A stretch of DNA of 64,000 bases from positions 1-64,000 of the forward strand of contig JAABRD010000015.1 in NCBI GenBank assembly GCA_011391085.1, given 5' to 3'. The number at the start of each line of letters is the position of its first letter. Position 1 is the stretch's first letter. Of this stretch, positions 4,372-35,846 are shown piece by piece. Under the pieces are notes generated by a model. The model made no database searches, was not told the origin of the DNA, and was given only the letters and a program-made list of their open reading frames with translations. Origin of the DNA: Thiotrichaceae bacterium (lineage in GTDB: Bacteria > Pseudomonadota > Gammaproteobacteria > Beggiatoales > Beggiatoaceae). The position numbers and the translations under genes were made by a program.

Positions 4372-4688
4372 GGGTATGTTGGAGTACGGAATTCATTCCG
4401 AATGGAATTTGGAGTACGGAATTCATTCCGTTTCAATGGGCGGAATCAATTCCGTACTCCAAGGGCTGGGTATGTTGGAGTACGGAATTCATTCCGAATG
4501 GAATTTGGAGTACGGAATTCATTCCGAATGGAATTTGGAGTACGGAATTCATTCCGTTTCAATGGGCGGAATCAATTCCGTACTCCAAGGGCTGGGTATG
4601 TTGGAGTACGGAATTCATTCCGAATGGAATTTGGAGTACGGAATTCATTCCGTTTCAATGGGCGGAATCAATTCCGTACTCCAAGGGC
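4372..4688. repeat. Family B tandem/inverted repeat array
   Basis: Three copies of a higher-order unit start at 4372, 4468 and 4594, each beginning GGGTATGTTGGAGTACGG. Each contains direct copies of GGAGTACGGAATTCATTCCG and ends with an inverted copy CGGAATCAATTCCGTACTCC. The middle copy carries one extra 30-bp subunit. Open frames across it merely translate the repeat. Confidence 0.9.
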
Positions 4689-4706
4689 AGACTATGACGA
4701 CCGCTA

Positions 4707-5768
4707 TTAATTCACCTTCTGCGCCAACTCACCCTTCTTATAGCGTTTCCCCATATCTTCCAAAGAAATGGGCTTCATCTTAGAAGCCGTGCCAGCGCAA
4801 CCAAACGCCTCATAACGGGCCTTACAAATGCCCATCATAGCCTTCGTGGTCTCCTTGAGATATTTACGGGGGTCAAATTCAGCGCGATGTTCACTGAGGA
4901 ATTTGCGAATGGCACCGGTGGAAGCCATCCGTAAATCAGTGTCAATGTTGATTTTGCGCACCCCATTCTTGATGCCTTGGACGATTTCTTCCACCGGCAC
5001 ACCGTAAGTTTGACCCATGTCACCGCCATAGCTGTTGATGATTTTCAACCAATCTTGTGGCACCGAAGAAGAACCGTGCATGACGAGGTGAGTATTGGGA
5101 ATGCGGGTGTGAATTTCTTTAACACGATTGATAGCCAAAATTTCGCCTGTGGGAGGACGAGTGAATTTATAAGCACCATGACTGGTCCCAATGGCAATCG
5201 CCAACGCATCCACGCCCGTCTTCTTGACAAAATCCGCGGCTTGTTCAGGATCCGTCAACAATTGATCATGGGACAATTTGCCAGCGGCGCCGGACCCATC
5301 TTCCTCGCCTGCCATACCACTTTCCAAAGACCCTAAGCAACCCAGTTCACCTTCGACGGAAACGCCGCAGGAGTGGGCCATGTCAACAACTTGTTTGGTG
5401 ACATCGACATTATATTCATAACTGGAAGGCGTTTTCATATCCGCCATGAGAGAACCGTCCATCATCACGGAAGTGAAACCGCTTTGAATCGAACGCATAC
5501 ACACGGCGGGTTCAGAACCGTGGTCTTGGTGCATGGCAATGGGAATGCTGGGATACATTTCCACGGCGGCCCACATCAGATGCCGTAAAAACGGTTCACC
5601 CGCGTAAGAACGTGCGCCTGCCGAGGCTTGAATAATGACAGGACTATCTGTGGCACTAGCGGCCTGCATGATAGCATGAATTTGTTCCATGTTATTGACA
5701 TTGAAAGCCGGCAACCCGTAATTGTTTTCCGCGGCATGGTCAAGTAATTGGCGCAATGAAATAAGCAT
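4707..5768 (-). CDS. fba: Class II fructose-bisphosphate aldolase (Calvin-cycle type)
   Basis: 353 aa from the ATG at 5768, which has a strong SD (AAGAGGAG) about 10 nt upstream; the longer reading to 5852 is rejected. It is a zinc-dependent aldolase interconverting fructose-1,6-bisphosphate with DHAP and G3P, and acts on sedoheptulose bisphosphate in autotrophs. Metal and substrate motifs visible are AMHQDHG (zinc His), [32 protein letters not shown] and the phosphate-binding KINIDTDLR. Length and sequence fit the CbbA-like Calvin-cycle subtype seen in thiobacilli. It stands alone; the prk gene 9 kb away belongs to the same pathway. Confidence is high for the enzyme, moderate for the autotrophic subtype. 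Confidence 0.95.
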
Positions 5769-5990
5769 ATTTGTGTTTCTCCTCTTAAAACAAAGGTTTA
5801 GGTGGTGGTTAACGTTTAGACGATGATACCCTAATAGGGTGCAGAATGTCAATACTACAGGATTTTGAAAGAGTTGACAAGTTTTTTTAAAGTTGTCAAT
5901 TCTTTAGGTTAAAAAATTATTTATGATGGGATTTGTTAAATTGGTGGAATTTTTATTCTCTGGTTTAGGGGTGAAAATGGAGGGGCATTT

Positions 5991-6023
5991 AAACCTGACA
6001 GGTCTTTGAGACCTGTCAGGTTT
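5991..6023. terminator. Palindromic hairpin AAACCTGACAGGTC...
   Basis: A perfect inverted repeat, AAACCTGACAGGTC with its complement separated by TTTGA. It lies downstream of the minus-strand protease/caspase gene and could act as a terminator stem. The same stem recurs at 42577-42609, so it is also a dispersed repeat. No T-run is evident. Confidence 0.45.
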
Positions 6024-6048: not shown

Positions 6049-7527
6049 TCATCTTTCGACTGGTTCGGACGGTGGAGAAATTTCATTACGACAACTATCC
6101 AAAATGACAATGTTCAATTTGCTATTGGCAGATTGCATTTGTTCAACAATGCTGTCCACAGACACCATGTTATCTTCCCATCCTTGGCGGTCGTCAATAG
6201 GAACAAGATAATCTTTCCCCTCAATCTGTCCACCGATTCCACTAAAATAAAACAATCCAACCCCATTTTCAGCCGAAAGACGTTTAACAAATTCTTGGAT
6301 GGCTTCATTCATCTCGAAAAGGTTAGTATCTGTTCGTAGAATTACTTCAAAGCCCTTTTCGTTGAGAACTTTGGCCATGCCTTGTGCATCATTAGTGGGG
6401 TTTTTTAATGGGTAAAAGGGGTATTTAGCATTACCAATCACTAAAGCAAGTTGTTTGACAGAGTTAGATAATGTTTTTGAACAACCCCCAAAACAAAAAC
6501 TCCCACCACTCAGTGAAGCGTTATACCAGGGTACTTGTTGACCATTGGTAGTTCCACTTACTAACCTAGATACTCGCCGAAAAACGTCTTCTATCTTTTG
6601 AGACTTTTGCATTTCCTGCAATAAATATTTTGTGTAAAGTCCATATTTTTCTTCACCTCCGTCAAACGCTAACTTTTCTGGTGCGGTTGAAAACGCCTCT
6701 ATTATTCCTTCTAGTAGATTCTCCTCCGGTTCGGTGGGCGTAACTGGTTTAATTACCGCCGGTTCCGATTTAGGCATAGTTACTTCCTTCAAATCATCAT
6801 ACGCTTTACGCCAGTTAGCTGCCCGCCATTTTTCCATGTGACTCAAAACGATTTCTCCCCCCTTCGCACCCCGCAAAAATTCTCTGATACTCACCGCAGA
6901 CAGGGCATAGGCAAAATCGGTAACACCAGTCACCATTCCAATCACCTCATCGCCTCTTACCAAAGGACCACCAGAATTGCCCTCTTTTATATCACTGTCA
7001 GAAAATAAAATCTCTCGTCCCTTGGGGGAAGAATAAGACAAATCATCATGCGCCCAATCCCCACCACCTAATGGAAATCCAAAAGTGAAGACCGATTCTC
7101 CCGGCTTGAGAACAAAATTGTTGGCCACATAGAGAGGAATTGCCCAAGGCGATGTAGAACCTGTCACGGCCAATAAAGAAATATCCACCTTGTCATCATT
7201 CTCCAACACTTTAGCCTGAAATTCCCTGGGTTCTCCAAAAAATTCGACGTTTGGTGTGGAGTCATTTTTCACAACATGGTAAGCAGTGAGAATATAAACC
7301 GTATCACCATTTACGCCGACGACAAAACCAGTGCCTTGACTACTTTCTTTTGCAGTGATTCTAACCACACTCTTCTTGATTTGTTCAGCATCCCGTGGAC
7401 GTGCTTCTGGAGGAGACGCTGATTTATTTATCTCATTTATCAGAACGTTTCCAGCCTTTTCTAAACTGTTACAACTAACTACCAAAATGCTTAAACAGAT
7501 CAATGCTACAGTGGCGTATTTGTTCAT
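6049..7527 (-). CDS. Lipoprotein: trypsin-like protease fused to a permuted caspase-like domain
   Basis: 492 aa from the ATG at 7527 (SD GAGGAA). Signal peptide with lipobox VVSC (C19) predicts a lipoprotein. Residues about 50-215 form a trypsin-like serine protease with an apparently complete triad: H84 (TAYHVV), D115 (DISLLAV), S186 (GNSGGP). Residues about 270-347 match the C-terminal (p10-like) half of bacterial caspase-family domains: AFSTAPEKLAFDGG, YGLYTKYLLQEM, VFRRV and QQVPWYNASLSG. Residues about 357-492 match the N-terminal (p20-like) half: LALVIGNAKY, PLKNPTNDA, GVGLFYFSG and VILDSCRNE. The halves are therefore in reversed order and the protein ends 13 residues after the catalytic-position C479. 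The catalytic His is replaced by I431 (FSGIGGQ), so caspase activity is unlikely. A degenerate tandem duplication is the main alternative to permutation. Confidence 0.85.
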   Translation of the reverse strand: MNKYATVALICLSILVVSCNSLEKAGNVLINEINKSASPPEARPRDAEQIKKSVVRITAKESSQGTGFVVGVNGDTVYILTAYHVVKNDSTPNVEFFGEPREFQAKVLENDDKVDISLLAVTGSTSPWAIPLYVANNFVLKPGESVFTFGFPLGGGDWAHDDLSYSSPKGREILFSDSDIKEGNSGGPLVRGDEVIGMVTGVTDFAYALSAVSIREFLRGAKGGEIVLSHMEKWRAANWRKAYDDLKEVTMPKSEPAVIKPVTPTEPEENLLEGIIEAFSTAPEKLAFDGGEEKYGLYTKYLLQEMQKSQKIEDVFRRVSRLVSGTTNGQQVPWYNASLSGGSFCFGGCSKTLSNSVKQLALVIGNAKYPFYPLKNPTNDAQGMAKVLNEKGFEVILRTDTNLFEMNEAIQEFVKRLSAENGVGLFYFSGIGGQIEGKDYLVPIDDRQGWEDNMVSVDSIVEQMQSANSKLNIVILDSCRNEISPPSEPVER

Positions 7528-7661
7528 GGTGATTTCCTCTATTGGTTTCAAGTTTCTATTTAAATCTGTGGGATTTTTCACTTATGATTATGATGGATGC
7601 TATGATATTAAACTCTGGCGGAAAAAGCAAGAGGTGAGACTAGAAACGGAAGCCGGTGTGC

Positions 7662-7886
7662 GGGACTGGAGGCTTCAGCCGGGTTAGGCGGGACTGGAGG
7701 CTTCAGCCGGGTTAGGCGGGACTGGAGGCTTCAGCCGGGTTAGGCGGGACTGGAGGCTTCGGCCGGGAAACTTCTATCGTTCCACCCGGCTGAAGCCTCT
7801 AGTCCCGCGCACCGGCTGAAGCCTCTAGTCCCGCGCACCGGCTGAAGCCTCTAGTCCCGCACACCGGCTGAAGCCTCTAGTCCCGT
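7662..7886. repeat. Family A inverted repeat array (GGACTGGAGGCTTCAGCCGG variant)
   Basis: Four plus-orientation copies spaced by GTTAGGCG, then a centre at about 7765-7785, then four complementary copies joined by GCACACCGG-type linkers. It forms a large symmetrical hairpin between the protease/caspase gene and the Rpn pseudogene. Confidence 0.9.
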
Positions 7887-7922
7887 ACCCTGGCTAAGAC
7901 AAATTGAGTTTCACCACCCAAT

Positions 7923-8877
7923 TTAGGCCAACTTCACAAGAAGTTCTTGAAATTCTTCGAAAGTTTGGCAACGTTGGACCTGTTTGAGAAGTTGTTTCAA
8001 AATCACCGGTTGATCAATCGCCTGGATTTGCCGCACCAATTGACTTGTCAGGCGGTTGAAACGTTCTTCAAGAATTTCCAGCAACGTCTCTTGCAAGCCT
8101 TGTTGCAAACCTTGCCGCAAACCCTGTTGCTTCCCATCCAACAAACCCGTTTGCCGGCCCTTCTCAAAAACTTGTTGACCAGCCACAGTTTCCATCAAAT
8201 CAAAATTTAACATAGCCAATACCTCCTCTGGAGTAATCTGACGAAATTTGTTGAGGATAAACAGTCCTAAGACATTTAACGCCTCTTTCTGTTGGTCCTC
8301 CGTTGCAAAAGACTGCTTAATCGTCTCTTTCCACGCCGTGGCCTTTTCCCATAACTTGACCTGAGTGGGGTCGGTAATGGTTAAGGGAATCAAGACCACC
8401 AAGCGCGGGTCAATTTGTAACAAGTCCTGTTCGGTATAATCCGTTAACACGACTTCGTGAATGCAGTCTCCTAATTGACAGTTCGGAGATTGTCGAAAAC
8501 TGGTCAAGGAAACCGCCGCAGTTTGGTATTCCTTTTGAGTGTACAGAATACATGCCCATACGGGACCGTCATATTTTTCTTGCCGGCAACTCCAAAACAC
8601 TTCGGCTAATAGACGATGCCGAATAAATTTATTCCAAATAACCTTGAAACTCTAAAAACACTCGTCCCAAGGCACTTTCCAAATAGGGGCGTCCTTGAAT
8701 ATCGGGTTTCAAAGACTTGTCTTTGAGGATGACCGCCTTAAATTGATATTGGTCGGCTTCCTCTTGAGACAAGCCAAATAATTTTAACACACTGCTACCT
8801 GTCAGTTGCATCAACAAGTAAAAGGGGTCGTCAGTGCCGCGTAATATGGCACGGGGTGGTTTTTGAGTCATATTCAA
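7923..8877 (-). pseudogene. Rpn-family nuclease gene, frameshifted
   Basis: The intact paralogue at 51895-52800 aligns across two adjacent frames here. The first frame (8877 to 8629) ends FLEFQGYLE-stop. The homologous continuation KFIRHRLLAEVFWSC is in the next frame and runs to 7923. One extra base near 8631-8640 (in GGAATAAATTT) explains the break. The family is the Rpn/PD-(D/E)XK transposase-like, recombination-promoting nucleases. The second part contains QQGL-rich heptads (GLRQGLQQGLQ) then a coiled C-terminus, common in the family. It could be a true mutation or a sequencing error in an A/T tract. If real, no full-length product is made. Confidence 0.75.
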
Positions 8878-9510: not shown

Positions 9511-10707
9511 CTATTCCTCTTCTCGATTTTCACTATTCCGTGTCACCCTTCCCTGCGTCTGCGGCTTTGGACGTGGCACAATTTCCACTTTCCCAATGGC
9601 CACCAGGCCAATGATAATGGGAATGATATAAATCAACACACTCAACATTACTCCGACAAACGGACTGCCTTGCCCCAGTGTGTCTGCCATGGTCAACCGA
9701 TGGTCCTTCCGTTGTGAAGAAAAACCTTGGGGATACGTCTCCACCGCTGCCGTTGCCTCTCCCGTCAACCGAATTTTCAGCCCCTGTTTCTCGGAGTCAA
9801 AGCCAATCTGTTCTATATAAAAATTATCCATTTTGTCCAACCATACAAAATTGGATTCCGTAAAAGTCACTGGTTCGATTTTGGGATATTCAGGATAACT
9901 GATAACGCCTTCGGTCAACAAAGTAGTATAGGCCACTCGTCGCCCTCTTTCAAGGTCTTCCGAGATAAATTCAAGTTCCTTGACCAGCATCTTTTCTGGA
10001 TTTTTCTGGAAAATCGAAAAGGATTCTAGGGTTGGAGTGGTAAGAATCATCTTTAACGCATTGCCTTTTCCGGTCACGGTCAGATAAGGATTACGTCGTG
10101 GCAACCCCGGAACAGGAAGAGGGGAAGACGCCAGTCCTTCACATTGGTCAGTCGTCAACTTAAACGCCTTGGGATGCAACAATCTAGCGGCTGGGTCATC
10201 TTGGGCTTCCTCGATAGCTATGACCAAGGTTTCACGTCCAACCTGGGACTTTTCCACTGCCAAAGTGACCTTCGCCGGTGGTTCAATGGTCAAATCTTGT
10301 AATATTCCAAACTCGGTAGTCGTTGGATTGGCCGTTTCTAACAAGACAGTTGGAAATAACTCGGCACTCTTGCTGGTAATCGATTTGGGAGTATTTTCCA
10401 ACGTAGTGAACTCGATTTGTTGAAAGTCACTCACAGTAGCCGAGTGAAATTTCAGTCTTTCCCATTCCAAGGGTTGCTGTTCGACTCGAAAACTCAAGCC
10501 ATTTACCACCAGGTCAACTTGAATATGCGTGTCGATAGGTCTCGTCATTAACCAAATGGGCAGTAACAGGATGACAATGATGATGACCAAAATTTTGAAA
10601 CTTTGGGAAGCGACATACCAAAGATTGTGTAATGTCTCCCTGAACCAGGTGGCAACGGTTTGATAGCCACTTATCAGTTGCGTTTTCAAGAGGAGTAACC
10701 ACTGCAT
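9511..10707 (-). CDS. Membrane-anchored hypothetical protein with large periplasmic domain
   Basis: 398 aa. One transmembrane helix lies at about residues 38-55 (ILVIIIVILLLPIWL) and a second near 350-370 (LIYIIPIIIGLVAIG). The roughly 290 residues between them are presumably periplasmic, and a basic/acidic tail ends in the cytoplasm. No enzymatic motif is visible and I do not recognise the family. Its ATG overlaps the stop of the upstream secreted-protein gene (TAATG), so the two are almost certainly translationally coupled and may form an envelope complex (inference). Confidence 0.7.
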   Translation of the reverse strand: MQWLLLLKTQLISGYQTVATWFRETLHNLWYVASQSFKILVIIIVILLLPIWLMTRPIDTHIQVDLVVNGLSFRVEQQPLEWERLKFHSATVSDFQQIEFTTLENTPKSITSKSAELFPTVLLETANPTTTEFGILQDLTIEPPAKVTLAVEKSQVGRETLVIAIEEAQDDPAARLLHPKAFKLTTDQCEGLASSPLPVPGLPRRNPYLTVTGKGNALKMILTTPTLESFSIFQKNPEKMLVKELEFISEDLERGRRVAYTTLLTEGVISYPEYPKIEPVTFTESNFVWLDKMDNFYIEQIGFDSEKQGLKIRLTGEATAAVETYPQGFSSQRKDHRLTMADTLGQGSPFVGVMLSVLIYIIPIIIGLVAIGKVEIVPRPKPQTQGRVTRNSENREEE

Positions 10708-11456
10708 TAGAATTTGCCCTGTATCTCTGGTTGATGGTCAAATTTGACCGATTGATGGAGGTTGGCATTATCCCGTAAGGAGTAGCCATCCACGACCAAT
10801 TCATATTCCCCCGCTTTGGCACTGGCACACTCCCAAATGATGGTAAATGGTTGTCCACCGTCCTTCTTGCCCAACGGTTTTTCCACCAACGGCTTTGGAT
10901 TATTTTCACCTTGATAGATGGCATAGTTTAAATTAGCCGTCTCCCCCACTTTAAACACAAACCGATAGCCGGTGATCTGGGTCGGTGGTTGCGAGTGGTA
11001 AAAAATGACGGGGGCCACTGATTCTTCATGACGATTAGGGGTCCGGTTGACACGGGCAATCACGCCTAGTTCAGTCATGGTCAACTTCAAAGGTTGGAGT
11101 ACCTCCGCGGTGGACCATTGATACGGATTGAAACCGTCCTGCCAAGTCTCTTTTTCCCGGACGCGGTTCAGCACATAATACCGTTTTGGAACTAACTCGC
11201 GCACGGTCAAATCTATTTGGGCGGATTCCTTTAAATAAAACAACAATTTAGCAACAGGAAAGCCTGGCTTGGGTTCCGTATAATCCACTAACGCGGACAG
11301 CAATTCGATGTCCAAGTTACCACTCACCTGACGAGGTTGGATGCCTTCCCAATGGTCTCCGCGGTTTTGGTATTCAAGCAGAGGGTCATACGCAACCGCC
11401 TGGCCGTGGGCCAAGGGTAGTAATGTAGCAAAGAGTATCGTTTTTAGACGAGTCAT
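10707..11456 (-). CDS. Secreted hypothetical protein, coupled to the downstream membrane protein
   Basis: 249 aa. An N-terminal signal peptide (KTILFATLLPLAHGQAVA) suggests export with cleavage after AVA. The mature protein is beta-rich in appearance, with stretches such as GYRFVFKVGE and AGEYELVVDGYSL that could form an immunoglobulin-like module near the C-terminus. No catalytic motif was seen and I do not recognise the family. The TAATG overlap with the next gene points to a two-gene operon. The 5' end has an SD-like AGGAG before the ATG. Confidence 0.7.
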   Translation of the reverse strand: MTRLKTILFATLLPLAHGQAVAYDPLLEYQNRGDHWEGIQPRQVSGNLDIELLSALVDYTEPKPGFPVAKLLFYLKESAQIDLTVRELVPKRYYVLNRVREKETWQDGFNPYQWSTAEVLQPLKLTMTELGVIARVNRTPNRHEESVAPVIFYHSQPPTQITGYRFVFKVGETANLNYAIYQGENNPKPLVEKPLGKKDGGQPFTIIWECASAKAGEYELVVDGYSLRDNANLHQSVKFDHQPEIQGKF

Positions 11457-31267: not shown

Positions 31268-31945
31268 ATGAAACAGAAAGTCCATTGCTACCGTCCCCTG
31301 GGCCTCTTGTGCCTCCTCTTCTTACCATGGGTAGTACAAGCCATGGAACTCAAACCTATTACAGGTGAAGACAGTCAACCTCCCCTAACTCAGGAAGGTG
31401 CCCCTGTCTTAGGCACCCCGTCTCCCAAAGAGGCCGTAGAACCAATCAAACCCAAAGTCCCTGCGTCGGAATCTGCTACCTCCCCCAAACTCCCAGAAGG
31501 GGGAGATAAGAAAGCCGAGTTAAACAAATTTTTTGGCGAGATGAAACCCCTTTTGGCAGAAGCCCAAAAAGTGGAAGCCTATCTGATTGGACCCGAATTG
31601 GCCGATGCCAGTGTGCCAGAGGAGAGTAAATTAGCGGGTTATCCCGTCCTCAAAGAACCTGTGGTGCTTACCGAATCGCAAGTCAAGGTGTTTCAAGCCC
31701 TGCTGTTGGATGAGAAAAGTTATTTTTGGGGACCTGCCCAAAAGTGTTTATTGTACCCTCATGCCGCCTTACGTTTCCTCAAAGGCGAGGCCGAAATAGT
31801 GGTTCTGTTGTCAACCAAATGTAAGTTATGGTCCTTTGCTTACCAAGGGAAGTTGAAGACCAAGGATTATAGTCCGGTAGGAAAAACGGTGGGGGAGTTT
31901 CTCACCACGTTGTTTCCCAAAGAGTTTCCAGCGGAAACCCAATAA
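31268..31945 (+). CDS. Secreted conserved hypothetical protein at the head of the caspase locus
   Basis: 225 aa from the ATG at 31268 (SD AAGGA). An upstream in-frame ATG at 30995 is rejected because that stretch is a receiver-gene remnant and the signal peptide starts here. Signal peptide GLLCLLFLPWVVQA is followed by a proline-rich linker (about residues 35-80) and a C-terminal domain of about 120 aa with LLLDEKSYFW, KCLLYPHAALRF, EIVVLLSTKCKLW and LFPKEFP. I recall this C...P..A.RF/VL...C pattern from unannotated bacterial proteins but cannot name a function. Two cysteines could form a disulfide in the periplasm. It is transcribed towards the caspase genes, 88 bp before the first one. Confidence 0.8.
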   Translation: MKQKVHCYRPLGLLCLLFLPWVVQAMELKPITGEDSQPPLTQEGAPVLGTPSPKEAVEPIKPKVPASESATSPKLPEGGDKKAELNKFFGEMKPLLAEAQKVEAYLIGPELADASVPEESKLAGYPVLKEPVVLTESQVKVFQALLLDEKSYFWGPAQKCLLYPHAALRFLKGEAEIVVLLSTKCKLWSFAYQGKLKTKDYSPVGKTVGEFLTTLFPKEFPAETQ

Positions 31946-31952
31946 AAGTGGT

Positions 31953-31987
31953 AAGAAACTCAGTTTCTTTAAAGAAACTGAGTTTCT
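31953..31987. repeat. Family E hairpin
   Basis: AAGAAACTCAGTTTCTTT and AAAGAAACTGAGTTTCT lie 7 bp after the stop of the secreted protein and before the caspase gene. They could terminate or attenuate. Confidence 0.65.
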
Positions 31988-32033
31988 GCCATATTTTCAT
32001 CAACTCAGGTTAACTTGTAAGAGGTATTCTACC

Positions 32034-33008
32034 ATGCTTTTTTGTAAAACGAAACTCAAACCGTTGTTAGCCCATTCCGCGTTGGTTGCCACGTTGGTAC
32101 TGGTATCCCAAGGCGCGTGGGCGCAAACCCTTCATGCCATTATTGTGGCAGATACCAATGATACGCAAATCGGGGCCAGCAAGGATAGGGATGACATTAA
32201 TAAACTGGTGAGTCAAATCGGCGAAAACACTTGCTTACAGCCCAGCACCACGGTGATTGACGGCGATTCTGTTGCCCCCGGCGGAGGTGGATATGATAAG
32301 GTGAAATCTGCCATCGAGAACTTGTCCATTGCCCCAAACGACGTGGTTCTCTTCTACTACTCTGGGCATGGGGCAAACGCGGATAAGGGTTCTCGGTGGC
32401 CTGGTTTAGGAGTAGAAGGACAAAGTACACCGCGTAGCAGATGGATAGAATTGGCTTGGGTGAAAGAGACCCTCATATCAAAACATCCGCGTTTCTTCAT
32501 GGCCATGGCGGATGCTTGTAATGTCTTACCCGGCAGCGGTGGCAGTCGTGGACACAGAGGCGCCCAACGGTCAGGTTACGAACAACTGTTTCTGGACTAC
32601 AGTGGCTACATTATCGCGTCTGGTTCTATCCCAGACCAGTATTCCTTTGGAAAGGAGGGTGTAGGCGGATACTTTACTCAACAGTTTTTGAAGAGTCTGT
32701 ATAAAGGCTTGAACTCTTCCAGTCCTGATTGGGCTGGTATCATGGCCCAAGCTACCCAAATCATTCAAGTCAAGCATGACCAAAAACAACAGAAACCTCA
32801 AGCAGATGTGCAAGTGACTAACAGTGGGGCACGGGCGTCACGGAAGAACGCTTGTGCATTGTCGGCGCCGGGGACGCCTATACCAGTTCCTCCCATACCA
32901 AGTCCTATTCATGAAGGAACATGTGCTGACGACGTTTATTATATCAATGGGAACGGGGAGAGATGTTGCAAAAGGCAGACTGGGGTAGAATTTTGTCCTA
33001 AAGATTAG
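32034..33008 (+). CDS. Secreted caspase-family (peptidase C14) protein with Cys-rich tail
   Basis: 324 aa with an SD (TAAGAGG). A Sec signal peptide ends near QGAWA (residue 30). The caspase-like domain spans about 32-260. H112 in YYSGHGAN and C162 in MADACN are the expected catalytic dyad, so the fold looks active. IIASGSIPDQYSFG follows where the second half begins. A proline linker (PIPVPPIPSP, near 285) leads to a tail of about 30 residues with four cysteines (TCADDV, RCCKRQ, EFCPKD). Family members cleave after Arg/Lys in metacaspases (family knowledge). It is a clear paralogue of the first half of the gene at 33999. Export to the periplasm or outside is predicted. Confidence 0.9.
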   Translation: MLFCKTKLKPLLAHSALVATLVLVSQGAWAQTLHAIIVADTNDTQIGASKDRDDINKLVSQIGENTCLQPSTTVIDGDSVAPGGGGYDKVKSAIENLSIAPNDVVLFYYSGHGANADKGSRWPGLGVEGQSTPRSRWIELAWVKETLISKHPRFFMAMADACNVLPGSGGSRGHRGAQRSGYEQLFLDYSGYIIASGSIPDQYSFGKEGVGGYFTQQFLKSLYKGLNSSSPDWAGIMAQATQIIQVKHDQKQQKPQADVQVTNSGARASRKNACALSAPGTPIPVPPIPSPIHEGTCADDVYYINGNGERCCKRQTGVEFCPKD

Positions 33009-33015
33009 GGTAGTC

Positions 33016-33148
33016 ATCTGAATCGCAGATGACCACAGATGACACAGATTTCGCAGATTGGGTGATACCAAAATGAGGTCGAGAACGGAAATTTAGGCAC
33101 CACCTCATCTGCGTCATCCGTGCCATCTGTGTCAATCTGCGATTCAGA
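33016..33148. repeat. Imperfect inverted repeat (ATCGCAGATGAC family)
   Basis: CATCTGAATCGCAGATGAC...CACAGATTTCGCAGATTGG is mirrored by CATCTGCGTCATCCGTGCC...CAATCTGCGATTCAGA. A related fragment lies at 63727-63781. It separates the first two caspase genes. Confidence 0.7.
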
Positions 33149-33183
33149 CCTTCAAATAACCATTTACTACAGGAAACACCACC

Positions 33184-33984
33184 ATGACAGTGAAACAACT
33201 CTATTGCTTAGGTTTCCTCTTCGCAATACTCATTCTAAACAGTTGCAGTACCCAGGTAGTGACAGACCCCAAAAGAAAATGGGCGTTACTGATGGCTAAC
33301 CAAAGTTACACGTCAAAAGACCGCTTACAGAACCCCATTGCGGATGCCAAAAAGGTCGCCGTGGCTTTGCAAAAAGCTGGGTTCACCTCGTTTATTTATA
33401 ACGATTTGTCCTCCAAAGCAAACATGGAAAAGGCACTGCATTATTTTTTCAGCCAGGTCGATGATGACGACACGGTTTGGATTTACTACGCCGGTCATGG
33501 TGTTCAGGAGAATGGGAAAAACTACTTACTTCCCACCCAGGCCCAAATGAGTTCCCAGACACTCTCCGACCAAGCCTTGCCTGCGCAAGCCATCATGCAG
33601 AAAATGTCGAATCGGAAGGGAGTCAATATCATGGTGTTGGATACCTGTCGCAGTCCAAGTCCAAGACGGACCCCAACCCATGACCTAGTCGAAGTGGGTG
33701 GAGGCAATGTGTTGATTGTCTTCTCCACTGCCTCTGGCCAAAAATCCCCTGAAGGACAACCTGGTGAAGGGAGTCCCTTGGCAAAATATCTCGTGGGAGG
33801 TCTCCACCAATTACCCTGGGTACCGCTGGAAGACCTGTTCCAACAAGTAGGCACCCAAGTGCGGGACGAATATTCTAAACAACCCAAATATCAAGACAGT
33901 TTTGTGTATGTCTATGGCTGGACTGGCAAACGTTTTTGCCTCTCTCGCTGTTTGGACAGTCAAAACATCACCATCACCCCCTAA
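33184..33984 (+). CDS. Caspase-family lipoprotein
   Basis: 266 aa. Lipobox LNSC (C21) predicts a lipoprotein. The caspase domain follows with KWALLMANQSY, LQNPIADAKKV, H105 in YYAGHGVQ and C155 in VLDTCRS, then the second half NVLIVFSTASGQ, SPLAKYLVGGL and VRDEYSKQP in conventional order. Catalytic residues are intact. It shares more with typical bacterial caspase-like proteins than with its two neighbours, so it is not their recent duplicate. The next gene starts 15 bp after its stop, indicating one transcript. Confidence 0.9.
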   Translation: MTVKQLYCLGFLFAILILNSCSTQVVTDPKRKWALLMANQSYTSKDRLQNPIADAKKVAVALQKAGFTSFIYNDLSSKANMEKALHYFFSQVDDDDTVWIYYAGHGVQENGKNYLLPTQAQMSSQTLSDQALPAQAIMQKMSNRKGVNIMVLDTCRSPSPRRTPTHDLVEVGGGNVLIVFSTASGQKSPEGQPGEGSPLAKYLVGGLHQLPWVPLEDLFQQVGTQVRDEYSKQPKYQDSFVYVYGWTGKRFCLSRCLDSQNITITP

Positions 33985-33998
33985 CAGGAGAATTGCTT

Positions 33999-35846
33999 AT
34001 GAGTATGACAACACGCTTATTTTTTCAACAACCACGCCGTGATTTGAAGAGGGGTCTGCGATTCCTTGGTCTCCTCTGCGGTGCCGCCCCGTCTCTCACT
34101 TTGGCGGCCACGCTTCACGCCATTATTCTGGCAGACACCAACGATTCCTCGCTTCACGCGGACAAAGATAGAGATAATCTCAAGCAGTTGGTCGCTAATG
34201 TCCGTGACGCAACCGGCTTGGAATTACAAGAAACCGTGATAGATGGCAAGAACGGTTTTGGACAGGGTAGTTATGAACAGGTGAAGAATCTGGTAGCAGG
34301 ACTGCCCGTGATGGCCAAGGAGGACGTGGTGATTTTTTACTACACCGGGCATGGTGTCAACAAGGACACGGATTCAAATTCAAAGTGGCCTGCTATGGAT
34401 GTGGAAGGTGAAGGGACGGCACCCGACAAATTGATCAAGTTAAGTTGGGTCAAACAGACGCTATCGGCCAAATCTCCACGGTTGCTGATTGCCATAGCGG
34501 ATACCTGCAATGCGTTTCTTTCTGAACCTTCGCGTGGGGAAGGCACTTTAGGAGAAGTAGGCCCGTACAAACAGGCTTACCGAAAACTGTTTTTGGGCTA
34601 CCAAGGGGTGATTATGGCGTCTGGTTCTATTCCTGAACAAGACTCCTTTTCTAACCAAGAGGGAGGACGTTTCACGCAAGCCTTCTTAACCAGTCTCCAG
34701 GGAGAATTGAAGTCTGCGGACCCAGACTGGAAGAAAATTGCGGCGGAGAGTGTGAAAGAGATTCCTGTCGAGAATCCTGTTGATGCCAGAGACCAGCCAG
34801 TGCAGACACCGCAAATGGAGGTGGCGGTGGTGAAATCTGTGACGGAGGGAGGGGAGGAAGAAGAGGAGAATGGAAGTCATATTTTAAGCCAGCCTCCTCT
34901 CAAACTAGATGAAACGGTATGTCCACAACAGACTTCTGGGTGGGGGGCGTGTTATCTGAATGTCGAGGCGGAAGGGGGGAAAAAGTGGAGTGTGTTTGTG
35001 GAGGAGAAGGTGTGGTTTACCACTTGGCAAGGGTGGGAACAAGCGCAACCACTTGCTGACAAATCTGAAAAATCTGATGGTACAAGCACTTACCCCCAAA
35101 TGAAAGGGGCAGACCATTTTGTTTCACTCACCACAGACCCAACGTTGGTCTCCATCTTGACGCTTGGATACCGCTACGACAAACTCTCGGTAGGGGTCAG
35201 CCTCCTACCCAAAAAATCATATAATTTTCCTATATTCACACGGGAACCAGTAGAGTGGCAACACACGGAGGAGTCTAAAGATGCTGAGGGTAAACCTCTC
35301 AATGATGCGGAGGGTAAACCTCTTTATACTTATACCTACGAGAACTCTAACGAACAAGTCACTGCTTCCGCAGAACGGGAAGAACTCGATGTCACGGTGG
35401 GCTACTCGATACTGCCAGAGTTGCAGGTAGGTGTTGGTTTTAAACGGGTCAGATTAGATTATCAATACAGTCACTACTCTGACAATCCATTTTCTGATGT
35501 TCCTAAAGGTGAGAGTTGGAACGACGAGAGTAATTATAAAACCTATGGTCTGTCTTTGAACCTGGGTGGGCAAACTTGCCTAGCTAATTGGTTAGGCGCG
35601 GACATTTCAATGTTTGGGAATTTCTCGTATGGGGCACTGAAGACGACGTGGACTGATGGGAACAGTGATTACGCCACTTATCATTCCACTGATTTGGGCT
35701 TGTCATGGGGACTTCCAAAAGCTGGACAAATCAAGCCAGAGGTACGGTTTGGGTATCGGGCGCAGACCCTTTATACTCAAGTGTCTATCGGAGATGCGGT
35801 GGATACCACGGAGGGCTTTACGTTGGGGTTGCGGGTGACTTATTAG
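33999..35846 (+). CDS. Caspase domain fused to a predicted outer-membrane beta-barrel
   Basis: 615 aa from the ATG at 33999 (SD CAGGAG). An upstream ATG inside the previous gene is rejected. The signal peptide (RGLRFLGLLCGAAPSLTLAA) leads to a caspase domain (about 38-260) with H118 (YYTGHGVN) and C170 (ADTCNAF). A Glu-rich linker follows (GGEEEEENG, near 285-292). Residues about 330-615 are alternating amphipathic strands with aromatic girdles (SILTLGYRYDKLSVGVSL, QVGVGFKRVRLDYQYS, GFTLGLRVTY). The chain ends in an aromatic residue (VTY), the classic barrel C-terminus recognised by Bam. I infer a barrel anchoring or exporting the caspase domain. I know no named family with this architecture. 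Confidence 0.85.
   Translation: MSMTTRLFFQQPRRDLKRGLRFLGLLCGAAPSLTLAATLHAIILADTNDSSLHADKDRDNLKQLVANVRDATGLELQETVIDGKNGFGQGSYEQVKNLVAGLPVMAKEDVVIFYYTGHGVNKDTDSNSKWPAMDVEGEGTAPDKLIKLSWVKQTLSAKSPRLLIAIADTCNAFLSEPSRGEGTLGEVGPYKQAYRKLFLGYQGVIMASGSIPEQDSFSNQEGGRFTQAFLTSLQGELKSADPDWKKIAAESVKEIPVENPVDARDQPVQTPQMEVAVVKSVTEGGEEEEENGSHILSQPPLKLDETVCPQQTSGWGACYLNVEAEGGKKWSVFVEEKVWFTTWQGWEQAQPLADKSEKSDGTSTYPQMKGADHFVSLTTDPTLVSILTLGYRYDKLSVGVSLLPKKSYNFPIFTREPVEWQHTEESKDAEGKPLNDAEGKPLYTYTYENSNEQVTASAEREELDVTVGYSILPELQVGVGFKRVRLDYQYSHYSDNPFSDVPKGESWNDESNYKTYGLSLNLGGQTCLANWLGADISMFGNFSYGALKTTWTDGNSDYATYHSTDLGLSWGLPKAGQIKPEVRFGYRAQTLYTQVSIGDAVDTTEGFTLGLRVTY

Follow-up and report, generated by a model that had tools for sequence, protein, structure and literature searches.

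The window analysed here is a stretch of 64,000 nucleotides from a Thiotrichaceae bacterium (Gammaproteobacteria, Beggiatoaceae; assembly GCA_011391085.1, contig JAABRD010000015.1, positions 1 to 64,000), and its minus strand encodes, at 6049-7527, a 492-residue protein made up of a predicted lipoprotein signal, a trypsin-like domain, a linker, a caspase p10 half, and a caspase p20 half. The C-terminal 229 residues of this protein are almost certainly a natural circular permutant of the bacterial caspase-fold (orthocaspase) domain, and this permuted module is very probably disarmed as a classical protease. The order of the halves and the fold are well supported; the function is what we infer. 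The best explanation overall is probably that of a disarmed, circularly permuted orthocaspase through which a surface serine protease binds partners or is regulated, and the protein is named here a circularly permuted pseudo-orthocaspase.

Order of the Caspase Halves

The open reading frame (ORF) at 6049-7527 includes the stop codon and starts with an ATG at 7527, and its translation is open from end to end. When the whole protein is scanned with Pfam, Peptidase_C14 (PF00656) appears in two stretches, the best of which (residues 359-482) corresponds to profile positions 2-130. Submitted alone, residues 350-492 match PF00656 through the p20 half with E = 1.6e-24, and residues 257-359 match profile positions 161-228, the p10 half, with E = 8e-11. 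Since each half matches the family significantly by itself, the p10-before-p20 order is not a product of chance. Our own hidden Markov models (HMMs) place the p10 half at residues 274-346 (6490-6708, minus strand; 82.8 bits) and the p20 half at residues 360-481 (6085-6450, minus strand). A linker of 13 residues (347-359; 6451-6489, minus strand) joins the two, running from a natural p10 end (FCFGGC) to a natural p20 start; within the same clade, FCFGGC or a near variant also closes the p10 half of several conventional caspases. Residue numbers derived from the HMMs are ORF coordinates minus the 18 residues preceding the ATG.

A preliminary description of the gene had already placed a p10 half before a p20 half behind a trypsin-like protease, with a chain that stops just after the catalytic cysteine and an isoleucine instead of the catalytic histidine, and all of this is borne out. 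The histidine position is occupied by Ile431 (FSGIGGQ; codon 6235-6237), Cys479 is retained (LDSCR; codon 6091-6093), and the C-terminus lies 13 residues beyond it. The cut of the permutation falls between p20 and p10, just past the catalytic cysteine. When the entire window was scanned in six frames with sensitive HMM settings, no remnant of a p10 or p20 turned up beside the gene, the nearest other p20 score coming from a 33-residue frame on the opposite strand (5908-6006; E 1.4).

Predicted Structure

AlphaFold2 folds the 229-residue module into one domain (mean predicted local distance difference test score 89.4; predicted template-modelling score, pTM, 0.88), from an alignment of 74 rows comprising three permuted modules (the window's and the two described below) together with 28 p20 and 43 p10 separate pieces from conventional caspases. 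In module numbering, the strands of the model lie at 10-16 and 71-77 in p10, and at 96-102, 131-136, 160-172, and 208-219 in p20. When the model is compared with the PDB using Foldseek, the top four matches are chains of 8vp4 and 9c2y, which are engineered circularly permuted caspase-2 (query template-modelling scores 0.71-0.73). VIA-align superposes 198-199 of the 229 residues on these structures with Z 22.9 and a root-mean-square deviation of 2.5-3.1, and the aligned span on the model extends from residue 4 or 10 through residue 219 or 220. The segment at residues 270-347, which had been expected to complete the caspase fold, is thus predicted to do so. The next-best PDB match, the conventional single chain of MALT1, gives Z 14.2 with 135 residues aligned, and these are residues 88-224, the p20 half. 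As far as a predicted model can tell, an end-to-end match to a permuted reference with a half match to a conventional chain is the pattern expected of a permuted fold. Most mature caspases in the PDB consist of separate p20 and p10 chains, so that their lower Z is partly a matter of chain length, and MALT1 is a fairer contrast than these split-chain structures.

Related Modules in Other Genera

Relatives with the same order, which the preliminary description had proposed to look for, were found in Thiomargarita and Marithrix, so that permuted modules are now found in three genera (n=3 proteins). Their N-terminal partners differ: a trypsin-like domain in the window, a conventional caspase in Thiomargarita, and a long region with another caspase-like p20 in Marithrix. 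In Thiomargarita sp. isolate SulCav (genome G010, contig DYNP01000001.1), a 497-residue ORF is ordered p20-p10-p10-p20, its first half being a complete conventional caspase (YYAGHA, LDACR) and its second half a p10-p20 module that ends soon after its DxCR. This module and that of the window align as one collinear match in which 139 of 226 columns are identical (62%), without a gap across the p10-linker-p20 join. For this single pair, the Nei-Gojobori method gives a nonsynonymous divergence (dN) of 0.30 and a synonymous divergence (dS) of 1.14, a ratio of about 0.26. The third module, 42% identical, forms the C-terminus of a 1215-residue protein from Candidatus Marithrix sp. isolate BB16.

The Marithrix protein (L047:2658-6302, minus strand) contains, at residues 664-802, the further and divergent caspase-like p20, which by eye is without SGHG and DxCR; between it and the permuted module lies a stretch that a model for thrombospondin-type-3 repeat proteins matches weakly.

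Loss of a Residue of the Catalytic Dyad

For the comparison of active sites, only units with a near-full p20 and a near-full p10 were counted, giving 87 units, then 81 without duplicates, of which 3 are permuted. The His-Cys dyad is complete in 76 of the 78 conventional units, which are not a random sample because the loci were picked by similarity to the window protein, and in none of the 3 permuted units, which are not fully independent because the window and Thiomargarita modules are sisters. The losses differ from one copy to the next: His is replaced by Ile in the window and by Asp in Thiomargarita, and Cys by Ala in Marithrix. At most other strongly conserved columns the permuted units are unchanged; one substitution common to the window and Thiomargarita is Asp before YL, where 77 of the 78 conventional units have Asn. 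Among the units dropped by the completeness filter is a trypsin-caspase of genome G032 (L020), which has a split p10 match and reads LDASY, without the Cys; if it is counted, conventional units with an incomplete dyad come to 3 of 79.

Phylogeny and Origin

Trees of the p20 and of the p10 halves were each built from 81 units. Both trees pair the window module with that of Thiomargarita as its sister, with support of 100/98 (starred) for p20 and 99/90 (starred) for p10. In the p20 tree they group with 13 caspases of conventional order from the same family (90/81, not starred), and in the p10 tree with the same 13 caspases plus Marithrix (97/93, starred). A single clade of all three p20 halves is compatible with the data (approximately unbiased test, p-AU 0.38), and the clade that unites the three p10 halves is weak (69/66). 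These sequence-based trees fit a single permutation of one type of caspase; one origin or two are both possible.

We propose that neighbouring tandem caspase genes may have fused, the p10 end of one being joined to the p20 start of the next, and that the outer halves would then have been lost and the p10-p20 unit shuffled behind other domains. A Thiomargarita genome is reported to have 59 metacaspase genes (PMC4853749), and bacteria of this kind are therefore rich in raw material.

The Orthologous Locus in Relatives

Two genes upstream of the window gene, encoding 398 residues (9511-10707, minus strand) and 249 residues (10707-11456, minus strand), are part of a conserved locus; neither has a Pfam family at E 0.01. 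Homologues of both neighbours lie upstream of the trypsin gene in four other genomes (G020, G019, G033, and G032; loci L049, L050, L129, and L130), and because these same two neighbours are present the trypsin genes are orthologous by position.

The preliminary description had allowed that orthologues with an intact conventional caspase domain would make this copy a mere deletion product. Conventional orthologues do exist (G033, G032), yet the window module is 62% identical to the permuted one of Thiomargarita, and its p20 is only 38% identical to that of G033. A deletion product of an orthologous trypsin-caspase gene was rejected on this account; moreover, removing parts of a single p20-p10 copy cannot place p10 first.

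At the corresponding locus of G032, the trypsin-caspase gene (L130:3167-4891, minus strand; LDASY) is directly preceded by a short frame (4925-5104, minus strand) with a p10 remnant. The same contig has a second trypsin-like match (38% identity) at 284-472, which together with the p10 remnant is a sign of duplication.

Distribution

Profile A1 is the alignment profile of the three permuted modules. Searches used E cut-offs of 1e-10 in the family, 1e-20 in the class and phylum, and 1e-30 in Cyanobacteria and Myxococcota; outside the family, scoring was limited to the best 7 to 9 candidates per genome, and the genome sets overlap. For the window's family (42 genomes), three of the matches listed cover both halves, and the order search covered the identical 42 genomes. 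The window alone spans both halves among the matches listed for the class (369 genomes) and for the phylum (398 genomes), and there is no spanning match among those listed for the phylum to which a Nostoc genome belongs (339 genomes) or for that of a myxococcotal metagenome-assembled genome (297 genomes). The family and phylum lists comprised the best matches, and distant permuted copies could have escaped these searches.

A profile scan returned 14 loci, which our own HMMs resolve into Thiomargarita and Marithrix (2), p20-p10 units (11), and one p20 only. Partial family matches were also considered as permuted copies and rejected: all 10 of the 10 regions checked, a subset of the list in which the match extended partway into p10 or lay close to an isolated p10, are conventional p20-p10, and a sensitive scan of them found no p10 before p20. 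Among these 10 regions, one has in addition, close to the end of its contig, a 111-residue frame that matches p10 only, and one p10 is cut by a contig end. A partial match from p10 onward in the genome of L098 was likewise in conventional order. A whole-protein scan of the genome contigs of close relatives found no further member; in viral contigs 66 stretches fit a pattern and none was confirmed, and 268 plasmid records had a match, none spanning 80% of the query. In the collected loci, caspase-hit ORFs are distributed as 86 p20-p10, 13 p20 only, 3 p10 only, one p20-p20-p10, and one p20-p10-p10. The permuted entries are one p10-p20, one p20-p10-p10-p20, and three p20-p10-p20, these last being one Marithrix locus in triplicate.

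Relation to Known Proteins

Reversed caspase-3 and -6 were reportedly engineered by Srinivasula in 1998. Among solved structures, the closest likeness is that of cpCasp2 and JF1cpCasp2 (PDB 8vp4, 9c2y), in which the small subunit comes first and a short linker leads to the N-terminus of the large subunit; in the predicted model of the window module, both halves likewise form one caspase fold with reversed chain order. These proteins are man-made and active, whereas the window module is natural, bacterial, incomplete in its dyad, and placed behind a trypsin-like domain.

The preliminary description also saw here a bacterial counterpart of the type III metacaspases of algae, in which p10 is N-terminal to p20 (PMC5756287). 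The comparison stands for the domain order, since the window's p10 ends before its p20 begins, as in the definition given in PMC6426788. It does not extend to the motifs: type III metacaspases have SGHG, DCCH, and the D(x)QTSAD calcium motif in p10 (PMC10888605), whereas the window protein has SGIG and DSCR and no D(x)QTSAD in its p10. Because the calcium and catalytic motifs are absent, it should not be filed as a type III metacaspase. With peptidase family C14 (PF00656) it shares the p20 and p10 matches, but neither the His-Cys dyad nor the p20-p10 order.

Other proteins are similar in part. Previously described trypsin-caspase p20 proteins also have an intact-triad trypsin-like domain before a p20 with the His replaced and the Cys kept, but they are without p10 and end in DUF4384, whereas the window protein has p10 before p20 and comes from a relative of Thiomargarita and Marithrix. 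Pseudo-orthocaspases share a p20 with a substituted dyad; the window protein differs in having a p10 half. HtrA/Deg proteases share a trypsin-like domain with a His-Asp-Ser triad, but the C-terminal module here is a permuted caspase fold, and no PDZ was found. The proteins encoded at the same locus in G033 and G032 share the orthologous trypsin domain and the two upstream neighbour genes, but have a caspase in normal p20-p10 order, with an intact dyad in G033 and the Cys missing in G032.

A 2019 survey of prokaryotes defined type III as p10 ending before p20 and reports none among 11,208 p20-containing sequences (PMC6426788). The survey treated any protein in which p20 or p10 occurs more than once as ambiguous and excluded it, and for this reason a chain of the Thiomargarita type would not have counted there. 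In the main text of PMC3501461, neither "p10" nor "permut" occurs. Among the papers listed in searches of the open-licence literature, judged by titles and the beginnings of abstracts, none shows a natural bacterial permuted caspase. The window protein is a bacterial p10-first case, with two relatives in other genera, where the survey had found none, and it suggests that the engineered "reversed caspase" topology occurs naturally in bacteria. It also represents another lineage that pairs a trypsin-like protease with a caspase domain lacking the catalytic His.

Function and Alternative Explanations

If its dyad were intact, a naturally permuted caspase would be permanently on, and the loss of one dyad residue in each of the three copies fits this. 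Only disarmed copies would then persist in nature, and their use would lie in having the shape and the peptide groove of an active caspase. As one dyad residue was lost in each of the three copies, and in more than one way, the idea that permutation locks a caspase on, and is kept only when disarmed, can be tested. In the window protein, the module might be a substrate-recruiting or regulatory domain of a membrane-anchored trypsin-like protease, at the place that PDZ domains take in HtrA/Deg proteases; such a role in binding for the trypsin domain, or in regulating it, is plausible, with chances a little short of even. A wider and more tentative suggestion is that the Thiomargarita and Marithrix family has evolved a mobile, permuted caspase module, disarmed but keeping the shape of the active enzyme, and uses it behind unrelated partners as a peptide-binding or dimer-partner domain, that the Thiomargarita chain is a palindromic single-chain caspase/pseudocaspase dimer, and that nature reached this topology independently of engineers.

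Several observations weigh against these proposals. The window p20 retains Cys479, and some Cys-dependent chemistry of the module may persist. Since only three rows of the alignment join both halves, the pairing of p10 with p20 is the program's prediction. The model of the Thiomargarita chain, built from three rows, is of low confidence (pTM 0.45) and supports nothing. The p20 of Marithrix is sister to the caspase L039 (97/88, starred), away from the clade of its p10. A tree that constrains this p20 to the 16-row clade is worse by 44.5 log units (p-AU 0.083), one that constrains the p10 to a place beside L039 is worse by 33.4 (p-AU 0.052), and because of these costs the two Marithrix halves may differ in source. 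The content behind the trypsin domain is not the same at the orthologous loci: there is an intact-dyad conventional caspase in G033, a conventional caspase without the Cys in G032, an OmpA-like domain in G020 (where the ORF then enters masked bases), and no further Pfam domain in G019. As this content differs, the caspase part has been exchanged rather than trimmed. In the trypsin-like domain itself, the triad Asp column holds Asn in 5 of 5 aligned relatives and Asp in the window protein (alignment A4), so that it is uncertain whether trypsin-like proteins of this family are active proteases. The arrangement is also rare, with three proteins found.

In the main alternative, the permuted module would pair with active caspases and control them, the Thiomargarita chain being a possible single-chain dimer and the partner of the window protein being another caspase of its genome. 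Catalytically dead c-FLIP pairs with caspase-8 and controls it in this manner, and caspase dimers have a p10:p10 interface. In the p20-p10-p10-p20 chain of Thiomargarita the p10 halves are adjacent, with the dyad intact in the first unit and incomplete in the second, and several conventional caspases are present in the window's genome. Such pairing nevertheless seems unlikely to us, given the low-confidence model of the single-chain dimer, the distance of about 24 kb to the nearest caspase genes in the window, and the description of metacaspases as not dimerizing for activation (PMC5756287).

It is improbable that the module is an atypical active peptidase, in which Cys479 would work with a different general base and be constitutively active through the permutation, making the protein a double protease. 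The Cys is kept both in the window module and in that of Thiomargarita, constitutive activity is described for engineered permuted caspases (PMC7760212), and the orthologous trypsin gene of G033 bears an intact conventional caspase. Ile or Asp nonetheless stands where 76 of 78 conventional units have His, and in Marithrix it is the Cys that is gone from the module. A shade less probable again is an evolutionary leftover, that is, fused tandem caspases whose outer halves were lost, leaving an inert tail without shared fold or function. The loss of an active-site residue and the presence of the module in the window genome only, among five orthologous loci, would suit such a history, but another genus shares the join, at 62% identity and a dN/dS of about 0.26, the framework positions are preserved, and the module is confidently predicted as a single domain. 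An assembly or gene-calling artefact, in the form of a chimeric contig of two caspase genes, is hardly credible: the genome is a draft of 140 contigs, but the ORF is open throughout, the same join occurs in the separately assembled contig DYNP01000001.1 with a gap-free alignment across it, and this collinear Thiomargarita module together with a third in Marithrix excludes an artefact of assembly or deletion.

The Trypsin-Like Domain and the Surroundings of the Gene

The N-terminal MNKYATVALICLSILVVSC reads as a lipoprotein-type signal, predicted by eye from the motif (7471-7527, minus strand); its VVSC, with Cys19, is what we take to be the lipobox. In alignment A4, a Cys stands in the column of Cys19 in G032 (VVGC) and G019 (LTNC), and not in G020 or G033. 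The trypsin-like domain follows at residues 65-198 (6934-7335, minus strand; Trypsin_2, PF13365, E = 2.1e-18). The same alignment locates His84, Asp115, and Ser185 in the catalytic motifs, in agreement with the earlier view that the serine-protease triad is apparently intact. By sequence, this domain matches DegQ and HTRA1 best in the PDB; in NCBIfam the best matches are to the MarP and Do families, all under their cut-offs. No PDZ family appears in the Pfam scan of the protein at E up to 1, the C-terminal half being PF00656. PADLOC gave partial matches alone, to a caspase model and to those portions of defence proteins that are trypsin-like; the protein itself resembles an envelope lipoprotein. 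With Asn at the triad Asp, the trypsin-like domains of several relatives may be weak or inactive.

Elsewhere in the window, three adjacent caspase-family frames occupy 31884-35843 on the plus strand (31884-33005, 33184-33984, and 33882-35843), the second and third overlapping. The frame at 33184-33984 encodes a conventional p20-p10 caspase with a lipoprotein-like start, and that at 33882-35843 has a weak PF00656 match alone. About 26 bases beyond the stop codon of the permuted gene, a perfect 15-nucleotide inverted repeat (5991-6023; repeat search) may be a terminator-like stem or an interspersed repeat. Just upstream of the gene, at 7638-7915, there is a cluster of direct repeats of 26 and 28 bp in both orientations (GGCTGAAGCCTCTAGTCCCGC and its near-complement), which adjoin a DUF2887 gene (7923-8600); they thus separate the trypsin gene from the neighbours it usually has upstream. 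Finally, a tandem array at 4379-4726 consists of units of about 126 bp made of 22-bp near-palindromes, and its frames encode peptide repeats of the LEYGIHS type.

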